Positions 3,029 through 33,593 of a stretch of 35,036 nucleotides of DNA are shown here, in pieces; positions within the stretch are counted from its first letter, which is position 1; each line of letters begins with the position of its first letter. Under the pieces are notes generated by a model. It saw only the letters and a list, made by a program, of their open reading frames with translations, was not told the origin of the DNA and did no database searches. This stretch comes from an uncultured Bacteroidales bacterium. GTDB taxonomy: Bacteria; Bacteroidota; Bacteroidia; Bacteroidales; Muribaculaceae. The position numbers were made by a program, and so were the translations under genes. Location of the stretch: the NCBI GenBank assembly GCA_902787185.1, contig CADAFP010000021.1:1-35036 (forward strand), read 5' to 3'.

Positions 3029-4950
3029 AGGATCAGGGCGATGTACATCACGATGCCCAGCACGTTGCTGGCGGTGTCGCCCAGAGGACTGGTGTACTTG
3101 AAGCCGAAGAAGATCATCGCGGCGCTCACAACACCCATCAGGGCACCACCGGCGATGAAACCGCTGGCGAGCAGCGTGCCGCGCTCCTTGCGCTCCTTGT
3201 TGACCTCTTCATTCTTGCTGCGCGTGCTGACAAACCAGCTGATGATGGCGCCGACGAGCAGCGGGGCATTCAGCTGCAAGGGGATGAACATACCCAGCGA
3301 GAAAGGCAGGGCAGGCACCTTGAGCCAGTTGAGCAGCAGGGCGAGGATAGCACCCACACCGTAGAGTAACCAAGGCGTCTCGCCACCCATCATCAAGGGG
3401 TCGATGACGGCGGCCATAGCGTTGGCCTGAGGGGCTACCATTGCGTTGGGGCCGGTGAAACCGTAAGCCTTGTTGAGAATCATCATCACACCGCCCACGG
3501 TGGCTGCCGACACGAGGGTGCCGACAAACTTCCATGTCTGCTGCTTGGCGGGCGTGGTACCAATCCAGTAACCGATTTTCATATCGGTGACCATACCACC
3601 AGCCATCGACAAAGCGGTGCAGACCACACCACCGATGACCATGGCAGCGACGATACCCTTGTAACCGTCAAGGCCAATGGCAACGAAGATGACGCTGGCA
3701 ACGATAAGGGTCATCAGGGTCATACCCGACACGGGGTTGCTGCCCACAATGGCGATAGCGTTAGCGGCAACAGTGGTGAACAGGAAGGCGATTACCAGCA
3801 CCACGAGGAAGGCCACGATGGTCTGGACCAGATTGTGAATCACACCGACATAGAAGAACACGAAGGTCACCAGCAAGGCTGCCAACAGGGCAAACACGAG
3901 CACCTTCATCGAGATGTCGCGCTGGTGGCGCTCCACCTGCTGGCTCTGGTCCTGACCCTTAAAGGCCTGGCCTGCCAGACCGGCGGCGTTCTTGATGACA
4001 CCCCACGACTTGACGATGCCGATGATACCGCTCATGGCGATACCACCGATACCGATGTAACGGGCACCGTTGGCAAAAATCTGGTCGGGAGCCGACTGCG
4101 CCCATTCGGGACTCATACCCAGCAGGGGCACAACAACCCACCAGATGAAGGCACTACCGGCAAAGATGATAAACGCATAGGGCAGGCCGATAATGAAGCC
4201 CAGACCCAGCACTGCGGCGCCGGTATTGATTTTGAAAATCATCTTCACGTTGTTGGTGAAGCCCTCCAGCGCAGGGATAGCCTGTGTGGTGAGCACCTCT
4301 TTCCACCAGCCGAAGGTCGAGAGCAGGAAGTCATAGATACCGCCCACGAGACCGGCGATGAGCAACGGACGTGCCTGGTCACCGCCCTTCTGGCCGCTGA
4401 CGAGCACCTGGGTCGTCGCGGTAGCCTCGGGGAACGGGAACTTGCCGTGCATGTCGCTCACGAAGTACTTGCGGAACGGGATAAAGAACAGAATACCCAA
4501 GCAACCGCCCAGCAGTGAACTGAGGAAGACCTCAAGGAAGTTCACCGTGATGTCGGGATACTTGTCCTGCAGGATGTACAGGGCGGGCAAGGTGAAGATG
4601 GCACCAGCCACGATGATACCCGAAGCGGCACCAATCGACTGGATGATGACGTTCTCGCCCAGCGAGTTCTTGCGCTTGGTCACCGCACCGATACCGGCAG
4701 CGATGATGGCGATGGGGATGGCAGCTTCAAACACCTGGCCCACCTTCAAGCCCAGATAGGCTGCGGCGGCACTGAAGATAACTGCCATAATCAGACCCAG
4801 CGAAACGGAGTAAGGCGTGATCTCGGGATACGTCTTGTCGGGCTTCAGGATGGGGACATATTTCTCCCCAGGCTTCAGCTCACGAGCCGCGTTATCGGGC
4901 AACGAGATCTCGTCTTGCTGTTGTTGAACAATGTTTTCTTCGTCTTTCAT
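2983..4950 (-). CDS. OPT family oligopeptide transporter
   Basis: Inner-membrane secondary transporter of the oligopeptide transporter (OPT) family, 655 residues. A charged, Gln-rich cytoplasmic N-terminus (about 45 residues) is followed by many hydrophobic helices. The first helix region, ending [21 protein letters not shown], and the segment [20 protein letters not shown] are typical of prokaryotic OPT proteins. The C-terminus ends in a basic tail ([10 protein letters not shown]) after the last helix and looks complete. It is convergent with frdB and overlaps its aberrant end by 46 bp. Family members import oligopeptides or metal chelates; the substrate cannot be read from this sequence. 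Confidence 0.93.
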
Positions 4951-27714: not shown

Positions 27715-29490
27715 ATGAAACATTACCTACGCTCAATTTTGTTCGCCATGATGACGATCCTCGTGCCTGCGTTGGCTCAGGCACACGACTTTGCGGTAGA
27801 TGGCATCTACTACAATATCACCAGTGACAACGAAGTGGCTGTCACTTATCCGGGATCAACCTCTTCTTCAGTGGCCTATTCTGGCGAGATTATGATACCC
27901 CGGACGGTCACCTACAACGGAAAAACCTATAACGTCACCAAAATCGGCAAGAATGCATTCATGGATTGCTATAACCTCAAAGGGGTGAACATCGCCAACT
28001 CGGTCACTACTATTGGTGATGCTGCTTTTGCATTTTGTGATGGTTTAACAAGCATCATCATTCCCAACTCGGTCACCGACCTCGGTAATATGACGTTTAT
28101 ATATTGCCAGTGGCTGCAGAGTGTAACAATCAGCAACTCGGTCGCCGCTATTGGCGATGATACATTCTTCGGGTGTTCTTACCTGTGGGATGTGTCGATT
28201 CCCAGTTCTGTCACACGTATCGGCAATTCTGCGTTCTATGGATGCTACTTGTGGAACTTGACGATTCCCAACTCTGTCACTTACATTGGTGATTTTGCGT
28301 TTGCTAACTGCACCGGACTGTCGGATTTGACCATATCCCATTCTACCGCCACCATCGGTGACTATGCGTTCAGTAATTGCAATGGTCTGACGACCATCAC
28401 CATCCCCAGTTCGGTCAGCAAGATAGGCAAGAATCCGTTCGCTGGCTGCACCACTTTGAAGAGCATCACGGTCGAGAGTGGCAATACCAAATATGATTCC
28501 CGTGAGGGCTGCAATGCGATTATCGAGACAGCGACCAACAAGTTGATATCAGGTTGCTATCGCTCAACCATCCTGGGTTCAGTCACTTCCATCGGTGTTT
28601 ATGCGTTCGATGGCAGTATTGGCCGATCGAGCGTCACCATTCCCAAGTCGGTCACCAACATTGAGGGAAACCCCTTCACTAACTGCTCGGGTCTGGATCG
28701 TATCACGGTCGAGAGCGGTAATCCCAAATATGATTCCCGCGATGGCTGCAATGCTATCATCGAGACAGCGTCCAACAAGTTGATATCAGGTTGTATTCAC
28801 ACGACGATTCCCAGTTCGGTAACTGCCTTAGGTGACGAGTCATTTCAAGGCTGTGAAGGCATGACCACAATCAACATCCCCAATACAATCACCAGTATAG
28901 GGGAGGGAGCCTTCTATGGCTGCACCGGACTGAAAAGCGTGGCCATCCCCAACCAGGTTAAGGTCATCGAGGACTATGTGTTCACCAACTGCTCAAACTT
29001 GGCCAGTGTCACGATGCCCAAAACCATCACTTCTATTGGTGATTTCGCGTTCCACTATTGTTCAAAACTGACCAGTATCGACATTCCCGCTTCGGTTACT
29101 TCCATTGGTGACTATGCATTTGAACAATGCACCAGTCTGACTGAGGTGTATAGCTACATCAAGGCTCCTGCCGACATGACAGTAGGAGATGATGCCTTTG
29201 CACTCTATAGCATGAATTACACGGGGCGCACCCTGTATGTGCCTGCAGGCAAGAGTGCAGCCTACAAGGCCGATCGCAGGTGGAACCGCTTCTTCCGCAA
29301 CATCGTTGAAATGGAAGATGAGAACCCTGGCGACGTGAACGGCGATGGCTCGGTCAACATCAGCGACGTGAGTCTGGTCATTGACGCCATCTTGAGCGGT
29401 GGTGAATTCAACAGCGCTCTTGACGTGAATGGCGACGGCTCGATCAACATCAGCGACATCAACGCCATCATCGCCATCATCCTGCAGTAA
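27715..29490 (+). CDS. Large secreted BspA-type LRR protein with C-terminal dockerin-like domain
   Basis: A 591-residue exported protein. A signal peptide (MKHYLRSILFAMMTILVPALAQA) precedes about 18 LRR_5/BspA-type units of roughly 23 residues, for example VTTIGDAAFAFCDGLTSIII. Two longer inserts (28461-28560 and 28701-28800) carry nearly the same stretch, YDSR(E/D)GCNAIIETA(T/S)NKLISGC, 240 bp apart, a sign of internal duplication. The last 55 residues form two calcium-loop repeats, DVNGDGSVNISDVSLVIDAI and DVNGDGSINISDINAIIAII, a type I dockerin. Unlike the LRR protein at 17500 it has no T9SS tail, so the two are retained by different means. ATG 27715 is selected because it begins the signal peptide; upstream in-frame starts at 27670 or 27688 lack one. 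Confidence 0.9.
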   Translation: MKHYLRSILFAMMTILVPALAQAHDFAVDGIYYNITSDNEVAVTYPGSTSSSVAYSGEIMIPRTVTYNGKTYNVTKIGKNAFMDCYNLKGVNIANSVTTIGDAAFAFCDGLTSIIIPNSVTDLGNMTFIYCQWLQSVTISNSVAAIGDDTFFGCSYLWDVSIPSSVTRIGNSAFYGCYLWNLTIPNSVTYIGDFAFANCTGLSDLTISHSTATIGDYAFSNCNGLTTITIPSSVSKIGKNPFAGCTTLKSITVESGNTKYDSREGCNAIIETATNKLISGCYRSTILGSVTSIGVYAFDGSIGRSSVTIPKSVTNIEGNPFTNCSGLDRITVESGNPKYDSRDGCNAIIETASNKLISGCIHTTIPSSVTALGDESFQGCEGMTTINIPNTITSIGEGAFYGCTGLKSVAIPNQVKVIEDYVFTNCSNLASVTMPKTITSIGDFAFHYCSKLTSIDIPASVTSIGDYAFEQCTSLTEVYSYIKAPADMTVGDDAFALYSMNYTGRTLYVPAGKSAAYKADRRWNRFFRNIVEMEDENPGDVNGDGSVNISDVSLVIDAILSGGEFNSALDVNGDGSINISDINAIIAIILQ

Positions 29491-29508
29491 AAGGAAATCC
29501 AATATATA

Positions 29509-29624
29509 ACACCTGAACTATCTGGGATTTCTGATAATCAGATTTCTCAGATAGTTCAGTTGTTTATTGAATGGTTGTTGAGTTGTTGTTTAGTGGATGG
29601 TGACCTGGGTGGCGCCGAAGCCGT
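29509..29624. repeat. Direct repeat copy A: duplicated smr 3' end and terminator hairpin
   Basis: 116 bp nearly identical to 31227-31346. It contains the hairpin at 29513-29559 and, on the minus strand, the last ten codons of the smr gene (GFGATQVTIH and stop). It differs from copy B by a 3-base deletion, two substitutions and a one-base deletion, and the T-run next to the hairpin is lost. It lies just beyond the stop codon of ATPase 1. Confidence 0.93.
29513..29559 (-). terminator. Hairpin (duplicate copy) downstream of ATPase 1
   Basis: CTGAACTATCTG and CAGATAGTTCAG (12 bp arms) enclose the inner palindrome CTGATAATCAG. Read on the minus strand it follows the ATPase 1 gene, but the flanking T-tract seen in copy B is replaced by TTATATATT, so terminator strength may be reduced. 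It could also serve the plus-strand LRR gene. Confidence 0.6.
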
Positions 29625-29641
29625 TGTGTTCAATCATCTCA

Positions 29642-30853
29642 TCAATACAGGAAGCCGAAGAGCCAAAGGGGGATTTTGTTGCCAATGGTATATTCTTCGT
29701 CGTCTGCAGCAATATAGCCGTTGGTAACACCGGCCAATTGTTTATTGCCCTTGGATGGTCCGCCGACCTCAATTGTAAAGGTGTGGTCAATCGTAAAGTC
29801 TGCTGCTGTCTTGCTGTATTCAATCTGGTGTGACATGGACAACTGGTTGACAAAAAACACTTCACGCTCTGTCCCAGTGTTGACCGATACTGACAAGGTG
29901 TGCAGCAGATTTGTATTCTCGATATAGATTTTGTCGGGCTTCTGCATCCGTTTAACAGTTGACATGTCACTATATAGCAGATTGATGAGCCTCGATTCGT
30001 GCAAATATTGTAAATATTGCAATAATGTTGTTCGGGCGATGCCCGAGAGGCTTGATAATTTGGTGGTGTCAAGAATATATGGTAATCCTGAAGAAAGCGT
30101 GACCAGCAATGCTTGAATTTTGCGGATGTTGCCCACATCCAAGCGGCGCATCTGCGGCAATTCGCTCTCGATAGTTATGTTGACGACATTTTCAATTCGT
30201 GTATAATAGCTTTCGGCTCCCTCTATCAGGAAAGGATAGTAACCTTGTTTCAGGTATTGTTGGAAAAGAGCAAGAGGGCGCATGATTACATTTACCTCGT
30301 GACAAAGATCATTGCCGTGAGTTAATACATCATCAAGTGTGATGGGGTCAAATTTATGGTGATGAAACATAGCAATGTACTCTCGGAATGATAGACCCTG
30401 CATCTCATAAGAGATACAGCGGCGTGATAGGTCTGCTTCACCTTCCATCATGTTGATGAGCGACGAACCGCTCAATACCAGTTTCAAGTCAGTAAACTCA
30501 TCATAGGCATTCTTCACCTCTCGGCTCCAGCCCTCGTACTTGTGAACCTCATCGATAAATAGGTTTTTACCGCCCATCTTGTGGAACTGCTCAATGAAAT
30601 CCAGCAGACGATGAGTGGCAAAATAAATGTTGTCAAGGCTGATATAAAGCACTGTGGATGTGTCGGTAGGACCAAATTGTTCCAAAATGCGTTGTAGCAT
30701 CAATGTGGTTTTGCCTACCCCTCTTTGCCCCTTGATCATGATCAGTCGGTCATTCCAATTGATGGTATTCATCATGCCTCTGACAAAATCCAGGTTTACG
30801 GTTCGCATCCGATTCAAGTGACGGCTCTTTAGTTGCTCCATAAATACGCTCAT
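29642..30853 (-). CDS. AAA_14/DUF4143-type ATPase (ATPase 1)
   Basis: A 403-residue P-loop ATPase. Walker A is GQRGVGKTT (42-50), Walker B LFIDEVH (98-104), and a sensor-like LKLVLSGSS follows. A winged-helix-like middle region (about 245-300) precedes a C-terminal DUF4143-like domain, whose end (FTIEVGGPSKGNKQLAGVTNGYIAADDEEY to IPLWLFGFLY) matches the common Bacteroidales form and shows that the gene is complete. These ATPases occur in many copies per genome; their job is unknown, and links to mobile elements or nuclease-like activity are only inferred. It is AT-richer than the flanking genes, lies between two direct repeats, and has an elaborate promoter with phased palindromes. Confidence 0.9.
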   Translation of the reverse strand: MSVFMEQLKSRHLNRMRTVNLDFVRGMMNTINWNDRLIMIKGQRGVGKTTLMLQRILEQFGPTDTSTVLYISLDNIYFATHRLLDFIEQFHKMGGKNLFIDEVHKYEGWSREVKNAYDEFTDLKLVLSGSSLINMMEGEADLSRRCISYEMQGLSFREYIAMFHHHKFDPITLDDVLTHGNDLCHEVNVIMRPLALFQQYLKQGYYPFLIEGAESYYTRIENVVNITIESELPQMRRLDVGNIRKIQALLVTLSSGLPYILDTTKLSSLSGIARTTLLQYLQYLHESRLINLLYSDMSTVKRMQKPDKIYIENTNLLHTLSVSVNTGTEREVFFVNQLSMSHQIEYSKTAADFTIDHTFTIEVGGPSKGNKQLAGVTNGYIAADDEEYTIGNKIPLWLFGFLY

Positions 30854-30871
30854 TTTACTGTTTTACGGCAG

Positions 30872-30902
30872 CAAAGATAGTAAAAGTGTTTGATGTAGCA
30901 AA
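30872..30902 (-). promoter_or_regulatory. Promoter of ATPase 1
   Basis: On the minus strand: TTTG (30899-30902), 19-bp spacer, TATCTTTG (30872-30879). Exact matches to both consensus boxes, 19 bp before the ATG. Confidence 0.8.
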
Positions 30903-30975
30903 CACTTTTAATTGAAAATCGTTTTGCGCTTCAAACATTTTTCAGGTAAAATCGTTTTTCGTATCAAACGATTTT
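30881..30975. promoter_or_regulatory. Three palindromic operators phased at 33 bp
   Basis: Palindrome 1 (30881-30910) has perfect 12-bp arms TAAAAGTGTTTG / CAAACACTTTTA around 6 bp and overlaps the -33 box and spacer of the ATPase 1 promoter. Palindrome 2 (30914-30943) has 11-bp arms with 9 pairs. Palindrome 3 (30948-30975) has perfect 10-bp arms AAAATCGTTT / AAACGATTTT around 8 bp. Their centres are at 30895.5, 30928.5 and 30961.5, exactly 33 bp apart, about three helical turns, so dimers would bind on one DNA face. Half-sites share AAA-NN-GTTT. Confidence 0.8.
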
Positions 30976-31220
30976 GCTGATTCTTTTGCTCATAGTGGAT
31001 AATTAGTGGGAATGAAAACTGTAACGACGTTTTTATAAAAACAACCTTTAGTGTCAGGGGAAGATATTCAAAATCGGCATAATTCTCTATATATGAGTTG
31101 GATAAGCATTTTGCTGTATCATGGGCTTGGCTTATGCCTCGAAGAGGCAGGTCGGGTCGAAGACTCGACTTTTATGGAAAACACCCTCCTAACATCAGCG
31201 ATGTTTCCCCGGACTCTAAT

Positions 31221-31277
31221 GAAAAAACACCTGAACTATCTGGGATTTCTGATAATCAGATTTCTCAGATAGTTCAG
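31221..31277 (-). terminator. Intrinsic terminator of the smr gene
   Basis: 12-bp arms CTGAACTATCTG / CAGATAGTTCAG (31231-31242 and 31266-31277), inner palindrome CTGATAATCAG, followed on the minus strand by GGTGTTTTTTC. It is 34 bp after the smr stop codon. Confidence 0.75.
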
Positions 31278-31346
31278 TTGTGGTTTATTGAATAGTTGTT
31301 AGAGTTGTTGTTTAGTGGATGGTGACCTGGGTGGCGCCGAAGCCGT
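31227..31346. repeat. Direct repeat copy B: smr 3' end and terminator
   Basis: 120 bp matching 29509-29624. This copy is the functional one: it holds the real smr stop codon (31312), its last codons and the terminator hairpin with a T-run. The two copies bracket a 1602-bp segment carrying ATPase 1. Confidence 0.93.
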
Positions 31347-32388
31347 ATTCGCGGAAGCTGGCGTCCTGGGCCGTGCAGCGCGGGTAGCGGCGCTTGAGCT
31401 CGCTCAGCAGATGCTGGCGCAGTTTGCCCTCGCCCTTGCCGTGGATGAAGACGATGCGCTGGCCGTGCTTGTTGATGTTGGCGTCCATCACCTCGCGGAA
31501 CTTGTCCATCTGGTACTCGAGGATGGCGCCGGGCGTCATGCCGCTCAGGTTATCCATCAGCGAGGCGATGTGCAGGTCCTGCACGATGATGCCGTTGTTG
31601 TCGGTCTTCTTCTGCACGGGTTTGCGCTGGGGACGGTCCAGGCGCTTTTTCTCCTTCATGGCACGTTCCAGCTCGCCGCTGTCGATGCGCATCATGCGGG
31701 CGGGACGGTCGTTGGTCACAATCTCCACCGCGATGACGGGCACGTCAAAGTAGGGATTCTCGTGGAAACAGTGCACCTTGTAGAACTTGGTCACGTCCAG
31801 CCGCTGCTCGATGAGGGCTGGATTTTTCAGCTTGAAACCTTTGCCCTGCTTGAAGGCGACATACTGCACGGCGATGTGCGTCATGCCATTCAGGTCGTCG
31901 TGGCCGAACTCCTCGAGCTGCACCTGGATGTTGGGCTCCACGATGCCATGGTAGCGCGTCTGCCACTCGCCGTCACCGTCGCCGCGTGTCATGTAGGTGA
32001 AATACAGGAAGTAGTTCGAGTCGTTAACCAGCGAGGCATAGAACGTGGTGGTGTTCAGGTGCTTGATTTCGCGGGCCTCATAGCCCAACACGACGTTGAG
32101 CACCTCGCCCTCGGGCGTCTCCTCGATGGGCAACACGGGCTCTTCGACGACTTTAGGCTTGGGGGCGGGTTTGTCGGGCTCCACCTGGCGGGTGCGTATG
32201 TCCAGGGGCCGGTCATAGGCCGACGCCTTGGTGCCCGCCTGGCCCACAACGACCAGTTCGCGCTCCAGCGAGGGACGCTCAAAGCCATCCTCGTCTTCCA
32301 CATAGACGGTCTTGCCGTCAATCCTCGTCACGCGTCCACCTCCCACATCATTCAGGAAGCGCACAATATCGTTAATCTTTACATTCAT
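31312..32388 (-). CDS. DUF2027 and Smr domain protein
   Basis: A 358-residue Bacteroidetes protein. The N-terminal DUF2027 region (MNVKINDIVRFLNDVGGGRV onward) resembles the small beta domain found before Smr domains. A Pro/Lys-rich linker (about 75-100) and a central beta-rich region follow, and the last 85 residues form an Smr domain with the motif VFIHGKGEGKLR and end GFGATQVTIH. Smr domains (as in MutS2) bind branched DNA or collided-ribosome mRNA and can be nucleases; which applies here is unknown. It is 77 bp downstream of ATPase 2 but has its own promoter. Confidence 0.9.
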   Translation of the reverse strand: MNVKINDIVRFLNDVGGGRVTRIDGKTVYVEDEDGFERPSLERELVVVGQAGTKASAYDRPLDIRTRQVEPDKPAPKPKVVEEPVLPIEETPEGEVLNVVLGYEAREIKHLNTTTFYASLVNDSNYFLYFTYMTRGDGDGEWQTRYHGIVEPNIQVQLEEFGHDDLNGMTHIAVQYVAFKQGKGFKLKNPALIEQRLDVTKFYKVHCFHENPYFDVPVIAVEIVTNDRPARMMRIDSGELERAMKEKKRLDRPQRKPVQKKTDNNGIIVQDLHIASLMDNLSGMTPGAILEYQMDKFREVMDANINKHGQRIVFIHGKGEGKLRQHLLSELKRRYPRCTAQDASFREYGFGATQVTIH

Positions 32389-32414
32389 GGTGATTTCGTT
32401 TATTTTTTAGGCTG

Positions 32415-32445
32415 CAAAGGTACAATTTATTCTTTTCATGACCAA
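32415..32445 (-). promoter_or_regulatory. Promoter of the DUF2027-Smr gene
   Basis: On the minus strand: TTG (32443-32445), 20-bp spacer, TACCTTTG (32415-32422), 26 bp before the ATG. Confidence 0.65.
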
Positions 32446-32465
32446 TTCTTTCTCAGGGCGTCTTG

Positions 32466-33593
32466 TTATCGGAACAGGAGCAGTTCCTCGATGTTGTCAC
32501 GATGGATGACGGTGAATGTGGCATTGGGATAGGCATTGCGGAAAGACAAGGGCGCTGAGCACTTGCGTTTGGGGTTCCACTTCAGTTCAAAGGCATTGAG
32601 TTGGCCGTCTTTTTCTTCGAGATAGTCTATTTCTTGCTGGGTGGTGTTACGCCAGAACCAACTATTGGCATAGTCGCCAGTGTACTCCTTGCGTTTGACG
32701 CACTCGGATATGACATAATTCTCGAACAGAGCTCCCACGTCGTCACGGTTCTCCACTTGGGAAAAGTTGCCGATGATTGCATTCCTGATACCGTTGTCAT
32801 AGAAGAATATCTTGCGGCTGCTTTTCAACTCGTTGCGCAGGTTGCGACTGAAGGACCCCAAGCGGAAAATGATATAGGCTTGCTCCAGAATGGTCACATA
32901 ATTGGCAATAGTCTTGGCATCCAGGTCGCACAGTTGAGCCAATTCGTTAAATGATACCTCTGAGCCTATTTGGTAAGCTAATGCCTGTAGCAGTTTCGCC
33001 AGTTTGTCTGGCTTATGGATTTTGTCAAACTCAAGGATGTCTTTATATAGATAACTCTGTGTGAGTTCACGCAGAATCGCAATCTCGTCGCCCTGATGTG
33101 TCACGACATCGGGATAACTGCCATAGACCATCCTGTGGGGTATCATCCGCTTCTCCTCAAGCAGGTTTGTTTCGCCGACCAACTCTGTAAACGAGAGCGG
33201 GAACAATTTGTATTCCCATTTTCGGCCAGTGAGCGGTTCATTGATTTTATTGGCAAGGTCAAATGACGAGCTGCCTGACGCCAACAGTTGGACTTCGGGC
33301 ATCTGGTCGGTAATCAATTTCAATTTGATGCCGATGTTTGAAATTCGCTGGGCTTCATCAATCACGACAATACGAGAAGTTCCGATGATGGCCTTCAAAC
33401 GCGTGGATGTGATGTTTTCAAACAAGCCACGCACGTCAGGATCATCACCGCTCATCCACAAGACGTTATCCTCTGATTCTAGCAGTTGGCGAAGCAGCGT
33501 GGTCTTGCCTACACGCCTCGCACCCATGATGACAATAGCTCGGCCGCCAAATAACTGTTTACGGATTCTTTTTTCAATGCTGCGCGTAATCAT
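32466..33593 (-). CDS. AAA_14/DUF4143 ATPase (ATPase 2)
   Basis: A 375-residue P-loop ATPase. Walker A GARRVGKTT (24-32), Walker B IVVIDEAQ (75-82), sensor LLASGSSS. A winged-helix segment (about 215-255, FNELAQLCDLDAKTIANYV) precedes the DUF4143 domain, whose EIDYLEEKDGQLNAFELKW stretch has the E...D...ExK layout of a PD-(D/E)xK nuclease-like fold. This protein is only distantly similar to ATPase 1, so the two are not a recent duplication. Such genes are often treated as orphan or mobile genes; function is unknown. Its promoter carries a palindrome and three 32-bp phased repeats. Confidence 0.92.
   Translation of the reverse strand: MITRSIEKRIRKQLFGGRAIVIMGARRVGKTTLLRQLLESEDNVLWMSGDDPDVRGLFENITSTRLKAIIGTSRIVVIDEAQRISNIGIKLKLITDQMPEVQLLASGSSSFDLANKINEPLTGRKWEYKLFPLSFTELVGETNLLEEKRMIPHRMVYGSYPDVVTHQGDEIAILRELTQSYLYKDILEFDKIHKPDKLAKLLQALAYQIGSEVSFNELAQLCDLDAKTIANYVTILEQAYIIFRLGSFSRNLRNELKSSRKIFFYDNGIRNAIIGNFSQVENRDDVGALFENYVISECVKRKEYTGDYANSWFWRNTTQQEIDYLEEKDGQLNAFELKWNPKRKCSAPLSFRNAYPNATFTVIHRDNIEELLLFR

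Follow-up and report, generated by a model that had tools for sequence, protein, structure and literature searches.

A one-gene AAA+ ATPase unit, very probably inserted with a long target duplication, at the 3' end of smr in an uncultured Bacteroidales bacterium

Description of the locus

The window is the whole stretch of DNA analysed, 35,036 bp of an uncultured Bacteroidales bacterium (Muribaculaceae). It is contig C21 (CADAFP010000021.1) of a 3.2-Mb assembly (genome G000; 102 contigs, 80.9% complete), presumably a metagenome-assembled genome (MAG). A stretch of 1601 bp with a single gene, that of the AAA+ protein ATPase 1, sits between a BspA-type dockerin gene (+ strand) and a convergent DUF2027-Smr gene, smr (- strand), and is bracketed by direct repeats. 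The stretch is very probably an insertion with long target duplication at the 3' end of smr, made up of the ATPase gene and its upstream region only. The handles used below denote genomes (G), contigs (C) and loci (L). The features, in window coordinates, are as follows.

29508-29624, no strand: copy A (orphan) of the probable target duplication; 117 bp; hairpin, last ten smr codons and stop
31226-31346, no strand: copy B of the probable target duplication; 121 bp; continuous with the intact smr gene
29625-31225, no strand: unit, very probably inserted; 1601 bp, 42% G+C
29642-30853, - strand: ATPase 1; 403 amino acids (aa); AAA+ (AAA_14), winged-helix-like middle (by eye), PD-(D/E)XK-like C-terminal domain
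30854-31225, - strand: upstream region of ATPase 1, part of the unit; operator-like palindromic repeats read by eye, putative operators
29508-29564, no strand: terminator-like hairpin of copy A, now 3' of ATPase 1
31226-31282, no strand: terminator-like hairpin of copy B, 3' of smr
31312-32388, - strand: smr, target gene; DUF2027-Smr protein of 358 aa
27670-29490, + strand: BspA-type leucine-rich-repeat/dockerin gene; convergent with smr and adjacent to it at the empty site, as in the relative G074
32466-33593, - strand: ATPase 2 (AAA_14-DUF4143); 375 aa; on the 5' side of smr

Copies A and B are 96% identical, with one substitution, one 3-bp indel and one 1-bp indel, and share exact stretches of 56 and 45 bp. 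The former is the longest exact repeat within 29001-32500 (maximum over 200 shuffles, 14 bp). Copy B carries the C-terminal smr codons (GFGATQVTIH*) plus the hairpin; copy A is the orphan second copy. The predicted folding energy of each copy is about -32 kcal/mol (z -5.6). In direct orientation the 121-bp repeat occurs at two places only in the whole assembly (19 of 19 candidates scored), two further rows of that search being the hairpin palindromes' own reverse strand. The full repeat is absent elsewhere in this genome as represented by the incomplete assembly. The initial annotation had described ATPase 1 as bracketed by direct repeats; the repeats are confirmed, and its coordinates are one base off (117 and 121 bp, core of 1601 bp). 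Its further statement, that smr is left whole and the ATPase has a second-hand terminator, holds, both repeats containing the last ten codons, the stop and the hairpin.

Within the unit 372 bp precede ATPase 1 and 17 bp succeed it. Besides ATPase 1 it has no open reading frame (ORF) of at least 90 aa except a 182-aa frame overlapping that gene. No integrase or transposase is found among its genes (ORF list and Pfam search), in agreement with the earlier picture of a mobile one-gene cassette. Inverted arms of at least 25 nt near the unit ends, as at the ends of insertion sequence (IS) elements or transposons, are only the palindromic hairpins inside the target repeats. The G+C content is 42% in the unit, 60% in smr and 54.5% in the window.

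Description of the ATPases

ATPase 1 matches Pfam AAA_14 (97 bits) and, below the cut-off of 28.1 bits, DUF4143 (19.8 bits). A P-loop AAA domain is supported by the structure model (predicted local distance difference test score, pLDDT, 90.9), with Cdc6/Orc1, RFC and RuvB as the best PDB rows. The matches listed in a fold search with the whole model are AAA+/STAND-type ATPases, so the C-terminal domain was modelled separately. D352, E362, K368 and Q372, putative catalytic residues, are invariant in 18 of 18 aligned family members.

The ATPases of the window match PADLOC family PDC-S01: ATPase 1 with E 3.8e-27 at partial model coverage (given without a cut-off), ATPase 2 with E 4.6e-165 over nearly its full length. 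The ATPase at the pyrH end, described below, matches PDC-S27 (E 1.1e-194), and the DUF1016 nuclease on the dnaX side matches PDC-S02 (E 2.3e-129). AAA_14-DUF4143 and DUF1016 proteins have a putative PD-(D/E)XK-type nuclease domain in common (by Pfam name for DUF1016). No bracketing target repeat was found around ATPase 2. This gene is common to the window and G057 (95% aa identity) and absent from the closer relative G074, which has unrelated sequence instead.

Empty sites at smr

The smr gene is present in 99 of the 101 genomes of the genus searched; the loci of the 29 best-matching relatives were compared. The insert is absent from the smr locus in all 29 (the only DNA matches, of 30 and 37 bp, are in L031), and these stretches contain no ATPase 1 protein match. 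The repeats are therefore younger than the genes. G074, the nearest relative examined (Smr 97% identical), is colinear with the window on either side and lacks the ATPase. Identity is 90.5% across smr and a portion of the hairpin, and a single full hairpin separates the ends of the smr and BspA genes. The empty sites foreseen in the initial annotation are found; repeats as old as the genes, foreseen there as the contrary outcome, are not.

A partial second hairpin-like stretch lies in G074 between smr and the full hairpin (L144 near 4520-4640) and may be a remnant of a previous insertion. On the 3' side of smr, 6 of the 29 relatives carry another P-loop protein, some 400 aa long and of AAA_14-DUF4143 type. 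This side appears to be an insertion hot spot, with DUF4143 ATPases of another subfamily at L011, L018, L021, L022, L026 and L027; elsewhere among the 29 it is occupied by BspA or other genes. L036 is left out of this comparison of neighbours. The closest relatives of ATPase 1 in the genus (69-71% aa identity) have no flank of at least 200 bp in common with the window.

Further cases in the same genome

The genome has 23 AAA_14 matches, several with bracketing repeats. Five genes of the class (AAA_14/DUF4143, ATPase_2 or DUF1016) are bracketed. On C16 the gene of a 476-aa ATPase_2 protein is bracketed by a 156-bp repeat, 97% identical, which comprises the last 12 codons and stop of pyrH (UMP kinase) plus 115 bp. 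The full repeat is found only at C16, and its coding end is not dispersed. This ATPase_2 is absent at pyrH in 29 of 29 relatives' loci (1.5 kb covered; 267-303 bp in three), and G095 retains both flanks of the insertion site. Past the next gene, a DUF4143 gene also in G095, lies an older pyrH-end copy (L137 15126-15238, G000:C16), the third in total; the second and third are 97% and 80% identical to the first. Two insertions at the same gene end in succession are therefore probable. An apparently dispersed intergenic repeat, a 30-50-bp CACGCTAAGGCGCGAAG-like sequence that corresponds to positions 98-154 of the pyrH repeat, occurs at more than 20 places in this genome.

On C36 (L053) the gene of a 473-aa ATPase_2 protein is bracketed by a 65-bp hairpin repeat that occurs only twice in the genome. 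On the dnaX side (L055) a DUF1016 nuclease gene is bracketed by a 65-bp duplication of the dnaX promoter. In the dnaX loci of 29 relatives the promoter region is single, and no DUF1016 is found as DNA or protein (282 bp covered in one). Across 397 kb of this genome, not picked for ATPases, scanning gave 7 repeat pairs at 4 loci. Two of the 4 bracket a single gene of the class, for DUF1016 and for a weakly ATPase_2-like protein of 375 aa (30.5 bits, cut-off 33.2).

Cases in the genus and in other genomes

Target-like repeats of 35-190 bp surround about twenty AAA_14/DUF4143, ATPase_2 or DUF1016 genes in this genome, elsewhere in the genus and among Bacteroidota at large (the window, L050, L053, L055, C3:73483, L082, L091, L242, L246, L302, L320, L326, L154, L163, L172, L189, L194, L205, L209 and L218). 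The count is the authors' own and takes in repeats with a gene end, promoter, terminator or other non-dispersed-looking sequence. Targets are the ends of smr, pyrH, tRNA-Leu and a SUI1 gene, the dnaX promoter, a gene start, and terminators. A convincing gene end lies inside the repeat in the window and at L050, L154, L163, L205 and L326; the L091 repeat holds only the last codon and stop of a gene, that of L194 a gene start and that of L055 a promoter. Uniqueness of the repeat across the genome was scored for the window, L053 and L050. An empty site was tested for in the cases of the window, L082, L050 and L055, and L242 has partial evidence of one. The idea that such insertion could explain the spread of DUF4143 ATPases is favoured by the same signature around these genes of the class. 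Duplicated gene ends at other DUF4143 ATPases, which the initial annotation had proposed to search for, do occur, as at tRNA-Leu in G083.

In G016 a 91-bp bidirectional terminator is duplicated around an AAA_14-DUF4143 gene, between kinase-like and amylase-like genes; G027 holds a single terminator copy at that place, and in G059 the flanks are 107 bp apart. Related ATPases (72% DNA identity) adjoin the same amylase-like gene, on one side in G027 (L132) and on the other in G016 (L133), each site being empty in the other of these two close species. In G083 a DUF4143 gene is bracketed by a 40-bp repeat, the last 39 bases of the tRNA-Leu gene. In G077 and G079 the same gene follows the tRNA and its next 60 bp, and a second copy of the tRNA-end core was not found. 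The original repeat was therefore probably about 100 bp and decayed differently among the three genomes. In the isolate Runella defluvii DSM 17976 (L205) the repeat consists of the final 13 codons of a SUI1 gene with its stop. ATPase genes of G100, G029 and G052 are 91-92% identical (DNA) at unrelated loci; the common part is the gene with 86-155 bp upstream, and nothing aligns beyond the stop codon.

Several arrangements differ from these. The 92%-identical unit of G052 (L136, G052:C31:28832-34395) has a multi-copy element on one side and a single copy of a 520-540-bp direct repeat on the other, and the empty-site search for it matched the adjoining multi-copy stretch and that repeat. DUF4143 genes at L296, L309, L312, L314, L315 and L323 have palindrome arrays of 56-65 bp immediately ahead of the start codon and immediately past the stop. 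The arrays mostly differ between ATPases and are near-identical on both sides of each gene; they are perhaps operators doubling as unit ends. At L302 a degenerate RhuM-like frame (by eye) and a third degenerate repeat copy occupy 3741-4428 (ATPase orientation), between target repeat and ATPase, possibly as a nested insertion. In the single-contig genome G004, direct repeats of 398 bp, 95% identical, surround a DUF4143 gene (L112/L113, G004:C1:417406-420450).

Frequency and controls

For the GTDB loci a bracketing repeat is one of at least 25 bp and at least 85% identity. These loci are the best 80 of 262 confirmed, gathered with the family alignment and mostly Bacteroidota by their titles; the 69 with more than 600 bp on both sides were scored, with same-size intervals shifted 3.2 kb as controls. 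Of the genus DUF4143 loci, 39 of 40 were scored. Repeats bracket the ATPase at 10 of 69 GTDB loci (best 80 of 262) versus 1 of 104 controls (one-sided Fisher P 5e-4), and at 12 of 39 genus loci versus 0 of 39 controls (one-sided Fisher P 9e-5). These loci were gathered by homology search, and related genomes have a common history: L312 and L323 represent a single locus in two species, and L261 and L296 are the same locus. As a further control, no direct repeat of at least 60 bp was found in the smr loci of the 29 relatives or at six other loci. An unbiased scan of 800 kb of G004 yielded 12 pairs of repeats; one (the 398-bp repeat) surrounds a DUF4143 gene, and the others lie around a transposase, a leucine-rich-repeat gene, a glycosyltransferase and genes without a Pfam match. 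Plasmids and phages were considered as the vehicle and rejected: 36 plasmid records carry a relative, all below 60% identity, and phages give 2 records.

Interpretation

The unit and its content, the duplicated target, the empty sites and the recurrence with unrelated targets are observed here; the enzyme, the cutting geometry and the vehicle between cells are inferred. Insertion would have duplicated about 117-121 bp of target, smr keeping its end and hairpin and ATPase 1 gaining a copy of both. By the most likely route, two strand breaks would have been made at the target, some tens to about 190 bp apart, or, after a break, the polymerase would have switched to the ATPase template and then back to an upstream point. 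Subsequent copying would leave the target stretch on both sides of the unit. It is plausible that the ATPase protein moves its own gene. The chance that the breaks come from this AAA+/PD-(D/E)XK protein is somewhat less than even. For the insertion of its own gene by such a protein, the template switching proposed in the available text of PMC5350276 could serve as a model. The most far-reaching form of this proposal is rather unlikely. In it the AAA+/winged-helix/PD-(D/E)XK protein would be the insertion enzyme and each such gene an autonomous one-gene mobile element without fixed ends, nicking its target at two points tens to hundreds of bases apart, preferring gene ends and terminators, and copying itself in with the target kept whole. 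If true, a very abundant prokaryote candidate defence family would be a new class of selfish element, harmless on landing.

Several observations weigh against insertion with long target duplication, as a reading of the window or of the wider pattern. No repeat is present at 59 of the 69 GTDB loci (best 80 of 262) and 27 of the 39 genus loci, nor around the G100, G029 and G052 units in the stretches scanned; age or other routes must therefore explain the repeat-free loci, near-identical units included. Only 3 of the 12 bracketed genus loci (L302, L320 and L326) have, on the authors' own reading, the look of a target duplication. The remaining genus repeats are six palindrome arrays (two of them one locus in two species), two dispersed repeats (L322 and L324) and one 27-bp match. 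Among the 10 GTDB repeats, that of L221 is a paralogue's end, and at L215 one copy sits 1.3 kb away from the gene. Within the pyrH repeat, positions ~98-154 resemble a short sequence at many places in the genome. Unit ends vary, from 20 to 1281 bp before the start and from 7 bp within the repeat to 433 bp past the stop, and no common end motif is seen by eye in the junction table, unlike what is expected of an enzyme acting on defined ends. A donor copy was not found and no movement was observed; the genome is an incomplete MAG in 102 contigs.

The initial annotation favoured the integration, by site-specific or homologous recombination, of a circle carrying a copy of the smr end, the repeats then being attL and attR. 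The restored gene end with a distal second end is indeed the layout of an integrative element, and one case lies at a tRNA 3' end. Such integration is nevertheless very unlikely. From case to case the targets bear no relation to one another, and a gene start and a promoter are among them; repeat lengths range from 35 to about 190 bp; no integrase gene was found inside the unit. The closest relatives of the ATPase in the genus lie at other loci, without a common flank, and the 91-92% identical units at unrelated loci argue against a shared site. Still less probable is that two dispersed terminator or palindromic repeats flank the gene by chance, or that recombination between them brought it in. 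Hairpin-like sequences do lie 3' of smr in many relatives, operator-like palindrome arrays surround some other DUF4143 genes, and L322 and L324 are accounted for in this way. Against this, the window repeat includes smr codons and has only two direct matches in the assembly, the L053 hairpin repeat likewise occurs just twice in its genome, and gene ends lie within the pyrH, SUI1 and tRNA-Leu repeats. An assembly artefact, or the tandem duplication with later divergence named in the initial annotation as the main alternative, is the least credible of all. The genome being a MAG speaks for an artefact; the two copies differing at three places and the same structure recurring in other assemblies, including the Runella defluvii isolate, are evidence against it. 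Tandem duplication is disfavoured by the relatives, which are empty and not duplicated.

A different question is whether the ATPase genes are only well-retained passengers (through defence or addiction) of host repair, which would capture fragments at staggered breaks or by template switching. This has nearly an even chance and is about as likely as self-movement by the ATPase protein; it is a rival on the enzyme only, not on the insertion with long target duplication. It agrees with unit ends that are not fixed, with the same signature in several families (AAA_14-DUF4143, ATPase_2 and DUF1016), members of all three of which match candidate defence families, and with the restriction-modification genes that, in the available text of the sources cited below, are the published cargo. 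It is opposed by the shifted control intervals, which are almost never bracketed, by the 2 of 4 repeat loci in 397 kb that bracket a gene of the class (one weakly ATPase_2-like), and by the putative PD-(D/E)XK-type nuclease domain that AAA_14-DUF4143 and DUF1016 proteins both have.

Comparison with known systems

Long duplications of the target distinguish the unit from IS elements and transposons, which are likewise mobile units flanked by a target duplication: here the duplications are variable (35-190 bp), and neither a terminal inverted repeat nor a transposase was found. The earlier remark that the repeats far exceed a transposon target duplication in length is correct for transposons. 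As with integrases acting at tRNA and other gene 3' ends, the duplicated segment restores the gene end; unlike these, no integrase was found, there is no common attachment site, and a gene start and a promoter are also targets.

Single-gene PD-(D/E)XK nucleases are tied to gene movement also in the Rpn (YhgA-like) family, which raises RecA-independent recombination and for which template switching is proposed and autonomous movement discussed (PMC5350276). An AAA+ domain and a target repeat are not described in the available text of that paper, where 'duplication' is used once and 'staggered' and 'joint' not at all.

Window ATPases 1 and 2, the pyrH ATPase and the dnaX nuclease match PDC-S01, PDC-S27 and PDC-S02. 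PDC-S01 is reported to be the fourth most common defence across prokaryotes, and PDC-S01 and PDC-S27 to be ATPase domains fused to PD-(D/E)XK domains (PMC12988326). The available portions of the PDC papers, PMC12988326 included, describe no mechanism of movement and no target duplication; nor does the available text of PMC12988326 explain the movement of solitary PDC-type genes. Among the papers listed in the open-access literature none is, by its title, on DUF4143/AAA ATPase or DUF1016/YhcG genes with such target duplications, and absence from print is not claimed; papers on long target site duplications deal mostly with eukaryotic elements. The findings suggest a possible route of spread, without a transposon, for one of the commonest candidate antivirus genes. 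They explain harmless landing at the ends of important genes (pyrH, dnaX, tRNA-Leu). An empty site with a long repeat is a simple sequence test applicable to all genomes, and the enzyme behind insertion with long target duplication becomes testable in a single-gene system.

The nearest known system is the insertion of restriction-modification genes with long target duplication (Nobusato et al. 2000; Furuta et al. 2010, cited in PMC1643837, PMC3031569 and PMC3874152). In the available text of these three sources such insertions are described by comparison of related genomes, some units are unlinked to a known mobile element, and the mover is unnamed. The present cases have the same long, variable direct repeats (117/121 bp in the window, 35-190 bp in others), relatives with a single target and no insert (G074, G027, G095, and dnaX in 29 relatives) and, in the window unit, no known mobile element. 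They differ in cargo, a gene for an ATPase-PD-(D/E)XK protein or a DUF1016 nuclease, and in their hosts, mostly Bacteroidota; restriction-modification cargo is typical of the published cases and outside the definition used here. The common signature ties PDC-S01, PDC-S27 and PDC-S02-like genes to a mode of movement reported for restriction-modification genes. The insertion mode itself is already known; new relative to the published cases is the single-gene ATPase-PD-(D/E)XK cargo, and the general pattern over candidate defence genes is of more interest than the window case alone.

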